From contig CAIKZJ010000438.1 of assembly GCA_903831845.1 (NCBI GenBank), forward strand, positions 1 through 44,823: a DNA stretch of 44,823 nucleotides, in the 5' to 3' direction. The DNA is from an uncultured Ignavibacteriota bacterium. Its GTDB lineage: Bacteria; Bacteroidota; Ignavibacteria; Tepidaquicellales; Tepidaquicellaceae. Of the stretch, positions 9,826 to 28,876 are shown piece by piece. The translations under genes were made by a program, and so were the position numbers. How positions within the stretch are numbered: position 1 is the first letter of the stretch; each line of letters opens with the position of its first letter. The notes below the pieces were generated by a model that was not told the origin of the DNA, did no database searches, and saw nothing but the letters and a program-made list of their open reading frames with translations.

Positions 9826-10111
9826 CATTTTCTGATTTAAAACCCAGTCCCAGAAGACAAAGGGCAGCTTTTCAATAAGAAAAGCAAACTTTATCACTGT
9901 CTTTTTAAAAAATCAAAATAACTGCATTTATCATATTGCGTTTTGGATTATTTGTTAGTTGGAATTTAGGTACATTATAAATTGTTATAAAAACATAGTA
10001 AAACATTCGTTTTTTATAAGGATTAACAATAATCCGTTATAAAACACAGTTACAAATTTAATATCTGCCGGGGAAATATCTTTATTCCGCTGAGCGGAAG
10101 AAAGAAGAAAA

Positions 10112-11866: not shown

Positions 11867-11937
11867 CCACATCAACCCCTGCCTGAAGGCAGGGCAATCC
11901 ATAAATACAATCACAATACAAAGGATTTAAAAAGAAA

Positions 11938-11966
11938 CCTCTTTCCGGCGGGGAGCCGGAAAGAGG
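11938..11966. other. 12-bp perfect hairpin CCTCTTTCCGGC-GGGGA-GCCGGAAAGAGG
   Basis: Complementary arms read from the sequence; no T-tract follows. Confidence 0.75.
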
Positions 11967-12116
11967 CAGGAGTACAGGATAATTAGGGTCATATTTATCC
12001 TGTTCTCCGTATCATTAGATTATGAGCAGAAAGAGGGAATATGTTTTTTAAGAAAAAGTAAAAAGATCTTATGTTCTCCCTGTGAAGCATTGTTCTCCAA
12101 TTAACTTTTTTAAGAA

Positions 12117-12141
12117 CTCTTCCCCGCATAGCGGGGAAGAG
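12117..12141. other. 11-bp perfect hairpin CTCTTCCCCGC-ATA-GCGGGGAAGAG
   Basis: Complementary arms read from the sequence. Confidence 0.75.
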
Positions 12142-24415: not shown

Positions 24416-26335
24416 ATGAGACACACATTAACGATTTTAATATTACTCATCTTTTTTTCGGCAGCATCTGCCCACAATTACACCGGAGTAACCAGGGTCA
24501 AGATGCTCAACACCAACGAGTGGTTTGCCGTTGGATTCGACGGAATGTTCGCCAAGACAACAAATGCGGGAACGAACTGGACGTCGAGAAAAATCGAAAA
24601 CGGAACATACAATCTCTGGGACATAACATTTTTCAATTCATCGACCGGAATAGTCGCGGGTGTTTCCGACCAGTTTGAAACATACATCGGAAGAACGACG
24701 AACGGCGGCGACACCTGGACAAGGATATCATCGCCGGGTGATTTATGGGTAACTCCGATGACATTCGCTAACGAAAGAGTTGGTTTCTTGTACGGCAACG
24801 GCCCGGGTATGGGTTCGTCGATTTACAAAACTACGAACGGGGGACTGGATTGGTTTAAGACGAACCTCTACCCGCTGCCATTTTCAGTAAAGAGCATTTA
24901 CACGCTCGACACAAACAACATATACGCAGGGCTTAGCGACGGCTACATTCTATATTCTTCGAACGGAGGTAACAGCTGGATAATACTTGATACGGGAAGA
25001 CCGGACGATGTGATGGACGTGTGTTTCACGACTGTAAACACAGGCGTTTACTGTTCAAGATTTTCATCCCAGGATAACGGCGATGATAAAGGCTGGTATC
25101 TTAATTTCGGAAAGACGACGAACAGGGGTCAGACCTGGTCTGTAAGATGGATACAGGAATCCGACAATTACGCGATGAAATACTCGCAGAATACATTTTA
25201 CATAATCGGCGATTACAACAGGATACTGCGTTCGAACGACTACGGTTCGAACTGGGATTACTTCTATTATGACGTTCCGCTGAACGCTTCTCCGTCCACA
25301 ATGGATGTAAAGGGCAGCAACATACTCGTCGGCGGTTACGGCAATAACGGCGCTCTGCTTATCAAGTCATCGAATAACGGCGCGAACTGGACGTTCATGA
25401 ACATTCCCCCGCCCTTCGTGACAATATCTGGATATGCAAGATATTCGGACAACAATCAGCCGATAATAGCGGGAACCGTAAAGGCTTTCAAGTACGACAG
25501 AAACACCGCCAATATAATAGTATTCGACTCGACGGATATCGAGCCGAACGGAGCATACACTCTTCTGCACGTGCCGCAGGACACTGTCGACATCGGCGTT
25601 TATCCGAATTCGCAGCCTGTAAGGGATTTCATAATTTCTTATTATCCCGGTACGCCTTACTGGTATCAGATGATAACGCTGTATCCGACCGGCAACATGA
25701 ACAACGTAAACATTTACGCAAGGCGGATAAGCAATTCAATAGCCAACAATTCGGTTAACGGCAGGATAATGAGACTGACGGACGCGATGCTGGGCAATTT
25801 AAAGGACGCTGTAATAAGCATTAAGAACGGCGAAACATACGTCGGGTGCGCCATTTCAGACTACAACGGAATATATCACATAACATCTCTGCCGACCGGC
25901 ACATTAAGGGTTGTGGTCGACAGGATAGGTTTTAAGGGAGACAGCGTGAACGTAACGATGACTCCGACAACTAATCTTGATTCTATCAATTTTTACCTTA
26001 ACAGGTTAATAATAGGGATAAAGCAGATAAGTGAAAGCATACCTGTTACGTGTAATTTGTATCAGAACTACCCGAATCCGTTCAATCCCTCAACAAAGAT
26101 CAAATTCGATATTACAAGACCAGCATCATCAGTGCAGGGTTTGGGTAGTTTTTTAACGACAATAAAAATTTACGATATATCGGGCAGGGAAATGGGAACC
26201 ATACTGAACAGGAACCTCAGCCCGGGAACGTACGAAATCGACTTCAACGGCAGTTCACTGCCGAGCGGGGTTTATTTTTACAAGATTATCACCGGTGATT
26301 TTGTCAGTACCAGAAAAATGGTGCTGCTGAAATAG
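24416..26335 (+). CDS. secreted Ycf48-like protein with carboxypeptidase-regulatory-like domain and T9SS sorting domain
   Basis: Signal peptide; TTNAGTNW, TTNGGDTW motifs; ISDYNGIYHITSLPTGTLRVVVDRIGFKG; CTD LYQNYPNPFNPSTKIKFDI. Confidence 0.85.
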   Translation: MRHTLTILILLIFFSAASAHNYTGVTRVKMLNTNEWFAVGFDGMFAKTTNAGTNWTSRKIENGTYNLWDITFFNSSTGIVAGVSDQFETYIGRTTNGGDTWTRISSPGDLWVTPMTFANERVGFLYGNGPGMGSSIYKTTNGGLDWFKTNLYPLPFSVKSIYTLDTNNIYAGLSDGYILYSSNGGNSWIILDTGRPDDVMDVCFTTVNTGVYCSRFSSQDNGDDKGWYLNFGKTTNRGQTWSVRWIQESDNYAMKYSQNTFYIIGDYNRILRSNDYGSNWDYFYYDVPLNASPSTMDVKGSNILVGGYGNNGALLIKSSNNGANWTFMNIPPPFVTISGYARYSDNNQPIIAGTVKAFKYDRNTANIIVFDSTDIEPNGAYTLLHVPQDTVDIGVYPNSQPVRDFIISYYPGTPYWYQMITLYPTGNMNNVNIYARRISNSIANNSVNGRIMRLTDAMLGNLKDAVISIKNGETYVGCAISDYNGIYHITSLPTGTLRVVVDRIGFKGDSVNVTMTPTTNLDSINFYLNRLIIGIKQISESIPVTCNLYQNYPNPFNPSTKIKFDITRPASSVQGLGSFLTTIKIYDISGREMGTILNRNLSPGTYEIDFNGSSLPSGVYFYKIITGDFVSTRKMVLLK

Positions 26336-26361: not shown

Positions 26362-26457
26362 AAGAGTGTGTTCTCTTAACTACCCTCAGAGGGCTGTTCT
26401 AAGTTAGTCAGGTTAAACCTGATCCGGATGAGATAACTTTGAAACAGCCCTTTTAAA
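26362..26457 (+). ncRNA. structured repeat element copy 1, terminator-like
   Basis: AAGAG-tgtgtt-CTCTT hairpin, then CCCTCAGAGGGCTGTTctAAGTTAgTCAGGTtaaACCTGAtccggatgagaTAACTTtgaAACAGCCCTTTT. Confidence 0.6.
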
Positions 26458-26465
26458 AAGTTTAC

Positions 26466-26560
26466 AAGAGTGTGTTCTCTTAACTACCCTCAGAGGGCTG
26501 TTCTAAGTTAGTCAGGTTAGTCCTGATCCGGATGAGATAACTTTGAAACAGCCCTTTTTT
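26466..26560 (+). ncRNA. structured repeat element copy 2, terminator-like
   Basis: Near-identical to copy 1 with a 104-bp offset; two substitutions in the inner hairpin; ends in T6. Confidence 0.62.
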
Positions 26561-26655
26561 ATTTTCGTGAAAAATATTTGCTTGCAGCAAAGTCGGGTGA
26601 AATGTATTAGGAACAGCCTGATTATTTTTTCTGTGAAATGATAATTTATTTGCGG

Positions 26656-26732
26656 TACCCTCAGAGGGCTGTTACAGGTTATTCAGGTTTAAAAAACCCG
26701 GATGAGATAACCGAGAAACAGCCCTTTTTTTT
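26656..26732 (+). ncRNA. structured repeat element copy 3 (diverged), terminator-like
   Basis: CCCTCAGAGGGCTGTTacaGGTTAttcaGGTTTaaaAAACCcggatgagaTAACCgagaAACAGCCCTTTTTTTT. Confidence 0.62.
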
Positions 26733-26809
26733 CTGAGTGTTTTAAACTTTTATCCTCAAATTTCTCGGTAATTGCCTATATATTTGTAAATTATAAAATC
26801 CAAATTAAA

Positions 26810-28876
26810 ATGAAAAGAGCATTTACGTTATTTATTTTTTTGTTGGCGTTCCTGTTTTCCGGTACCGGAATAACTCAGGAAAAGTCCGATAAATTCGATC
26901 TCGGCAAGATGTGGACGTTCGAACACGCTCCTGCCGATTATTTCAACCAGGTATACGGTTTCAAGCCGGACGCGGCATGGCTTAACGACGTCAAGCTGTC
27001 CGCTTTGCGTTTCGGCAACGGGTGTTCAGCGTCTTTCATATCGGAAGACGGACTTGTTATGACGAACCATCACTGCGGAAGGGGTTATGTTACGTCAGTG
27101 ACGAAACCCGGCGAGGATTTCAGCGTGACAGGATTCTGGGCTGAAACGCTTGCGGATGAAAGGCCGGTTCCCGGACTCTGGGTCGACCAGCTTATAAACA
27201 CTGTTGACGTAACGAAGGAAGTTCAGGACGCTATTGAATCCGGAAAGACAAATACAGAAAAGGCGAAGAACAAGACGGACAAGATTAAGGAAATCGAAGC
27301 GAAGTATAAAAGCGAAACAGGGCTTCAGTGCAGCGTGATAACGTTTTACAACGGCGGCATGTATATGCTTTACTGTTACAAGAGATACACAGACGTGCGT
27401 CTTGTGTTTTCTCCCGAGAACAACATAGCGCATTTCGGAGGTGACCCGGATAACTTCACATATCCGAGATACGGATTAGACGTGGCGTATTTCAGGGTTT
27501 ACGAAAACGGACAGCCCTACAAGACGGCAAATCACTTCAGCTGGAGCAGCAACGGCGCGAAAGTAGGCGAACCGCTTTTCGTTATAGGCAATCCCGGAAG
27601 CACGGAGCGTCTGAAGACCTACGCGCAGCTTGAATTCGCCAGGGATTATCAGATTCCTAGCCGTCTGGAAGGGCTTAACTACATGGCTGAATATCTCGAC
27701 AAATACATACAGCAGAGCGACGAGAAGAGGCAGAAATACCAGGACGCGTGGCTTGGCGTCATGAACTCGCAGAAAGTATTCAAAGGGCAGATAAAAGCTC
27801 TGAAGGACCCGGTGATGATGGACAGGAAGAAAGATTTTGAAAACCATTTGAGAGCAATAGTAAATTCAAAACCTGAACTTAAGAGCAAGTACGGAAACAT
27901 ATGGGACGAGATTGAAGCGGGTTGCAGAGATTATTCGAAGATATTCAATGAACTCGCGGGTTACGATGCGGGCGGGAGGTACAGTTCGAGATATTTCACG
28001 GCGACAAGAATGATATTCAGGAATAAAACGGAAGACAAGCCCGTTAAGGATTCGCTTCTTGAGGTACAGTATAGAAACATCGATCCTGAATACCAGAAGG
28101 CGCTCCTGAAATTCGACTGCGAAACTATATTGACTAAATTAGGAAAAGACAACGCGGCTGTAAAGAGCGCTTTCGGAAACAGAAGCGCAGACGAGCTGGT
28201 TGATTACATACTCGGAAACGCGATGTGCGTTACTAAAGAGGGAGCATTCAGGCTCGCGGGAATGAGCAAGGAAGAGATAACGAAATCATCCGACCCGCTT
28301 GTGAAGTTTTTTGTCGATTCGAAAGCGAGATACGATGAACTTTCAACCAAACAGAAAGAAGCGCAGGCGAGAATTGAAGTAAACGCTCAGAATCTTGGCA
28401 GGATAATTTTCGACATATACGGAACGACGATACCTCCGGACGCGACGCTTACGCTGAGGATTTCGGACGGCGAAGTAAAAACATACGAATACAACGGCAC
28501 GCTGGCGCAGCCGTTCACCACTTTCTTCGGGTTGTATGAAAGATACTACGGCAACGAAAAGAAATCGCCGTGGATGCTTCCCGAAAGATGGAAGACTCCC
28601 CCGCCGGAATTCAGGCTGGAAACGCCTTTCAACCTCGCCACGACGAATGACATAATCGGAGGCAATTCGGGAAGCGCGCTTATAAACACGAAGAAAGAAG
28701 TTGTCGGCCTTGTGTTTGACGGCAACATCGAGAGTCTGCCGGGAAGATACATATACACCACGGATTACAACCGTACTATCGCGGTCGATTCACGCGGACT
28801 GCTTGAAGCCGTGAAGAACATGTACAAGGCAAAGAGGCTGGCGGACGAGATCGAGAACGGAAAAATAATGAAATAG
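26810..28876 (+). CDS. S46 family serine peptidase (dipeptidyl-peptidase 7/11-like)
   Basis: GNGCSASFISEDGLVMTNHHCGRGYV; NIIGGNSGSALINTKKEVVGLVFDGN-type C-terminal catalytic motif; signal peptide. Confidence 0.93.
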   Translation: MKRAFTLFIFLLAFLFSGTGITQEKSDKFDLGKMWTFEHAPADYFNQVYGFKPDAAWLNDVKLSALRFGNGCSASFISEDGLVMTNHHCGRGYVTSVTKPGEDFSVTGFWAETLADERPVPGLWVDQLINTVDVTKEVQDAIESGKTNTEKAKNKTDKIKEIEAKYKSETGLQCSVITFYNGGMYMLYCYKRYTDVRLVFSPENNIAHFGGDPDNFTYPRYGLDVAYFRVYENGQPYKTANHFSWSSNGAKVGEPLFVIGNPGSTERLKTYAQLEFARDYQIPSRLEGLNYMAEYLDKYIQQSDEKRQKYQDAWLGVMNSQKVFKGQIKALKDPVMMDRKKDFENHLRAIVNSKPELKSKYGNIWDEIEAGCRDYSKIFNELAGYDAGGRYSSRYFTATRMIFRNKTEDKPVKDSLLEVQYRNIDPEYQKALLKFDCETILTKLGKDNAAVKSAFGNRSADELVDYILGNAMCVTKEGAFRLAGMSKEEITKSSDPLVKFFVDSKARYDELSTKQKEAQARIEVNAQNLGRIIFDIYGTTIPPDATLTLRISDGEVKTYEYNGTLAQPFTTFFGLYERYYGNEKKSPWMLPERWKTPPPEFRLETPFNLATTNDIIGGNSGSALINTKKEVVGLVFDGNIESLPGRYIYTTDYNRTIAVDSRGLLEAVKNMYKAKRLADEIENGKIMK

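Follow-up and report, generated by a model that had tools for sequence, protein, structure and literature searches.

The window analysed here, a 44,823-nucleotide stretch of DNA from an uncultured Ignavibacteriota bacterium, carries a gene for a T9SS-sorted extracellular protein and, downstream on the same strand, a gene for a peptidase of the S46 family. Between these two genes, we located three copies of an RNA element (Table 1), and all the strings that the first-pass annotation had quoted for them were found in place. Common to all three copies are TACCCTCAGAGGGCTGTT, GGATGAG, and AAACAGCCC, and CAGAGGGCTGTT is likewise present at each; this last string, with up to two mismatches, gave 12 matches against 1.9 expected. 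Copies 1 and 2 (97% identical over 96 nt) represent a true tandem duplication with a spacing of 104 nt, the 5' hairpin included. Copy 3, which lies about 100 nt beyond copy 2, is diverged (82% identity with copy 1 over the core) and consists of the core only, and so the annotated description of the copies as tandem holds for the first two, but not for the third. Moreover, the TTTT run that had been ascribed to all three is short in copy 1 (T4) and reaches T6-T8 in copies 2 and 3. A degenerate fourth copy was considered at 26593 (62% identity), though it has no counterpart in the congeneric genome G002 and is probably a chance resemblance. Separately, we noticed that copies 1 and 2 each contain a TAACTTTG on the + strand (26434-26441 and 26538-26545) that agrees with the -7 promoter consensus.

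Table 1. Features from the T9SS-cargo gene to the S46 peptidase gene, in window coordinates.
Feature	Position	Strand	Evidence or remarks
T9SS-sorted extracellular protein gene, YCF48/BNR repeats, C-terminal sorting domain	24416..26335	+	Pfam PSII_BNR, Por_Secre_tail, TIGR04183
Copy 1, 5' hairpin AAGAG-TGTGTT-CTCTT, start of 28-nt invariant block	26362..26377	+	Invariant in Wc1, Wc2, G2c1, G2c2, G4; missing from copy-3 type
Copy 1, core: TACCCTCAG, stems 1 and 2, inner hairpin, conserved CCGGATGAGA, short T run	26381..26454	+	
Copy 1, stem 1	26391-26398/26443-26450	+	
Copy 1, stem 2	26401-26406/26434-26439	+	
Copy 1, inner hairpin	26407-26423	+	
Copy 1, conserved CCGGATGAGA	26424-26433	+	
Copy 2, conserved 5' hairpin	26466..26481	+	
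Copy 2, core, with stronger T run (CAGCCCTTTTTTATTTT)	26485..26558	+	Likewise in sister species
Copy 3, diverged core without the 5' hairpin; inner hairpin shifted in register (GGTTT/AAACC), GGTTA/TAACC as stem 2, T8 after the core	26656..26728	+	
TATATTTG, -7 box of S46 gene (Bacteroidota sigma-A type), located past all three copies	26779..26786	+	Kept in three species; motif match
S46 family peptidase (Dpp7-like) gene	26810..28876	+	Pfam PF10459 E=5.9e-180

To identify further copies, we searched the home genome (3.2 Mb) by BLAST, which matched these three only. Two congeneric species also carry the element: at the orthologous locus, G002 has three copies, ordered as in the window, and in G004 reading through the corresponding intergenic region revealed a single one. 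In all three species, the T9SS-cargo gene and the S46 peptidase gene flank the element. When 84,980 species genomes were scanned with a strict pattern (home-genome records possibly being left out), only G002 and G004 were returned. An extra match to the 5' block pattern in G002:C165, with three mismatches, was taken as chance on the mismatches alone. A covariance model (R1) was built from the seven copies and run on samples of the family, order, class, and phylum (several hundred related genomes). Here, the seven known copies scored E-values of 1e-16 to 1e-21, and beyond them the order, class, and phylum samples gave only weak matches, of which those inspected were mostly plain GGCTGTT/AACAGCC terminators of 38-47 nt, built on the outer stem of the element. 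Thus, the homologues at other loci by which the first-pass annotation would have judged the element did not appear, and the copies belong to this one locus in three species. As for a known family, Rfam gave no match at the gathering cut-off, and the best sub-threshold matches at relaxed E-values were chance. A literature search for noncoding RNA in Ignavibacteria likewise found nothing.

Invariant in all seven known copies are TACCCTCAG, GGGCTGTT, TCAGG, GGATGAG, and AAACAGCCC. Foremost among the 12 syntenic intergenic stretches that we compared between the window and the G004 contig was the element itself, with a score of 115 (86/102 identities, including an exact 28-nt match), followed by the blocks at 11927-12141 (94) and 10063-10110 (86). 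Since protein identity to G004 is 61% for the flanking T9SS protein and 81% for S46, and this block scores highest, the block is most likely under purifying selection. The element is thus real, conserved, and lineage-restricted.

In all seven copies, the 8-bp outer stem is perfect, and the MAFFT alignment pairs 8/8 positions in the G004 copy; because this stem never varies, it gives no evidence of covariation. When compared with shuffles, the fold z-scores were -4.8, -3.9, and -4.4 for window copies 1-3, and -5.5, -4.2, -2.1 (G2c3), and -4.0 for the copies of the relatives. These low values stem mainly from the outer stem, as the inner domain alone has a z-score of only -0.5 to -1.8. With minimum free energies of -21 to -33 kcal/mol, the copies have the stable G+C-rich hairpin of an intrinsic terminator. 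The outer stem is followed by T4 to T8 in most copies and by T3 in two copies of the relatives and in the G004 copy, the poor T runs being those of copy 1 (TTTTAAAA, or TTTATAAA for its G002 counterpart) and of G002 copy 3 (CCCCTTTGCTC). A local terminator scan with a loop limit of 8 nt flagged none of the copies, on account of that limit. In stem 2, the compensatory change reported for copy 3 (AAGTTA/TAACTT to GGTTA/TAACC) is real and amounts to one full exchange of AT for GC. Stem 2 is also kept in G004 through GU wobbles and an added GC pair, provided that a one-base gap is allowed. The closing pair of the inner hairpin is GC, GU, or AU, depending on the copy, and this hairpin shifts register in the copy-3 type. 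In the formal count, one pair was changed on both sides, which for seven copies is not above the shuffled control, and so the significant covariation that the first-pass annotation would have taken as support did not emerge. Covariation is therefore slight, at one or two pairs, and it does not prove the structure, which is plausible and has moderate support. A new structured-RNA family would be expected at several loci or in diverse taxa and with significant covariation. Here, with one locus, three species, and covariation not above shuffles, that label is weakly supported, though the element itself is real.

Regarding which gene the copies belong to, copy 1 begins about 25 nt past the T9SS stop codon and the TATATTTG box lies about 30 nt before the S46 ATG, both in 3/3 species. 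The -7 consensus of Bacteroidota is TAnnTTTG or TAHHTTTG (PMC7366714, PMC6847099), which TATATTTG matches, and in the window TAHHTTTG occurs 12-31 nt before the start codon in 5/22 genes, with fewer than one expected by window frequency (about 0.2 for a 20-nt range and 0.5 for a 50-nt range). A full-length T9SS orthologue was found only in the three element-bearing species (80% identical in G002, 61% in G004). In a further congeneric genome, G003, the S46 orthologue (65% identical) has a different context, with neither an orthologous T9SS gene nor the element. From the position of the promoter and this co-occurrence with the T9SS gene, the copies are most likely part of the T9SS 3' UTR, not of the S46 leader. 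This assignment is drawn from few species, and read-through from upstream is possible. As a separate observation, the tblastn match to the G004 S46 gene (L023; G004:C7:30377-32431) contains an in-frame TGA. The ORF of this gene stops short at 617 aa, past the GGNS motif, which could reflect gene truncation, recoding of the stop, or an error in sequencing.

Taken together, we consider it somewhat more probable than all the alternatives combined that the copies are a lineage-restricted, locally duplicated intrinsic-terminator/3'-UTR element of the T9SS-cargo gene, with a conserved inner domain. An enlarged terminator array that ends the T9SS transcript and insulates the S46 promoter is the most economical reading. 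The sequence itself shows where the copies lie, how they are predicted to fold, that three species keep them, and that a promoter motif follows them. The terminator-like character in the first-pass annotation is borne out by orthologous copies in two more species, the outer stem in 7/7 copies, and T runs in most. According to this model, a polymerase leaving the T9SS gene would transcribe the 5' hairpin and the ACCCUCAG stretch, after which the long hairpin GGGCUGUU...AACAGCCC would form ahead of the U run. Release of the transcript would presumably occur at copy 1, or with higher efficiency at copy 2, while copy 3 would serve as a back-up, and the structured 3' end left behind might protect the message. 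The array would also shield the S46 promoter, located beyond copy 3, and the array itself probably grew through local duplication of one ancestral copy. In the family, each genome has 0 to 4 plain GGCTGTT/AACAGCC hairpins, and a T run follows several of these. However, the 28-nt invariant 5' block and the invariant GGATGAG exceed what a plain terminator needs, which argues for selection on more than termination. Some protein or RNA may contact the inner GGATGAG and the 5' ACCCTCAG, and a bound factor or a 3'-UTR-derived sRNA is a possible explanation for these invariant segments. Tentatively, and with a rather low probability, the inner domain and ACCCTCAG could form an undescribed protein-, ligand-, or RNA-binding module in the terminator that controls termination or yields tandem 3'-UTR-derived sRNAs in the genus.

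Closest to this, and the least doubtful of the alternatives, is that the copies are a small regulatory RNA, or tandem sibling RNAs from the 3' UTR, in which the unpaired ACUACCCUCAG and GGAUGAG would bind a target or protein and the terminator would be the 3' end. Such RNAs are a recognised class in Bacteroides thetaiotaomicron (PMC7366714). The invariant single-stranded segments between hairpins, the terminator-like stem at the end, and a conservation that surpasses the remaining intergenic stretches in the comparison of the window with G004 are all consistent with it. Nonetheless, no promoter is conserved ahead of the copies, with the -7-like TAACTTTG present in copies 1, 2, and G2c1, but missing from G2c2, copy 3, and G4, and the element is limited to one locus in three species.

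Less probable again is a transcription attenuator or riboswitch-like leader of the S46 peptidase, which the first-pass annotation had entertained as a regulated switch. The terminators do lie upstream of a co-oriented peptidase gene, and the 5' CCCU is able to pair with the AGGG of the terminator stem as an anti-terminator hairpin. However, the conserved -7 box of S46 follows copy 3, and this places all the copies ahead of the transcribed leader; copy 1, moreover, abuts the T9SS stop codon, and the S46 orthologue in G003 does without the element. Because the CCCU/AGGG hairpin is weak (-3.9 kcal/mol compared with about -27 for the terminator fold), a simple equilibrium switch is unlikely, and the earlier proposal is disfavoured. 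A leader peptide from a GTG in the 5' hairpin was also considered and rejected, as losing 2 nt breaks the frame in G004 and copy 3 lacks a start of this kind.

Far less probable is a repeat at the level of the DNA, be it a miniature mobile element, a REP-like hairpin, or a recombination site, that was inserted and multiplied. Its inverted-repeat architecture and three local copies would fit, but the dispersed copies of a MITE or REP are absent from the home genome, the relatives hold no others, the phage, plasmid, and viral-contig collections gave no element match, and the element occupies the same locus in 3/3 species. A hammerhead core consists of CUGAUGA and GAAA with stem II between, and so the superficial CGGAUGA...GAAAC string recalls a compact ribozyme of this kind, a reading with next to no probability given that G occupies the core U4 position, the string becomes AGGAUGA in the G004 copy, stem 2 takes up the intervening strand so that stem II cannot form, and Rfam has no hammerhead match.

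When set beside known systems, the element shares with intrinsic (Rho-independent) Bacteroidota terminators, including the plain GGCTGTTT...AAACAGCC hairpins in its relatives, a G+C-rich perfect stem, with a T run beside it in most copies, and a position at the 3' end of a gene, before the promoter of the next. In contrast, it adds a 45-nt inner domain with the invariant GGATGAG, an invariant 5' hairpin with ACCCTCAG, and an arrangement of three copies in a row. The 3'-UTR-derived sRNAs of B. thetaiotaomicron (PMC7366714) likewise have hairpins, a conserved unpaired stretch, and a terminator downstream of a coding gene, but our element is known from sequence, has a promoter motif that is not conserved, and occurs in three species only. 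Tandem riboswitches with terminator platforms (reviewed in PMC9481103) similarly consist of repeated structured units, each with a terminator-like stem. In contrast, the element lies outside the leader of the downstream gene by promoter position, and its conserved part is inside the terminator loop, with no ligand logic.

Accordingly filed, the element is best described as an unusual terminator or 3'-UTR element, with a modest chance of being an undescribed regulatory RNA. It is a well-defined and testable single-locus candidate. Should the inner domain prove functional, it would represent a conserved recognition module inside a terminator hairpin. The locus also offers a caution: hairpins repeated upstream of one gene can be part of the transcript that precedes it. 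To our knowledge, RNA regulation is little known in the Ignavibacteria/Bacteroidota lineage.

Three other noncoding stretches drew our attention. At 10063-10110 of the window, a 48-nt block immediately precedes the ATG (10112) of a DEAD-box RNA helicase gene. This block shares 46/48 positions with G004, belongs to no Rfam family, and is possibly a conserved leader. After the same helicase gene, a noncoding stretch of about 215 nt (11927-12141; 79% identical in G004) is bounded by the strong hairpins CCTCTTTCCGGC...GCCGGAAAGAGG and CTTCCCCGC...GCGGGGAAG, making it a candidate structured RNA, with no Rfam match. Finally, at L038 (G032:C13:371832-371960), a GGGGCTGTTTC...GAACAGCCCC hairpin with an insertion of about 100 nt represents another enlarged terminator-like hairpin in the order.
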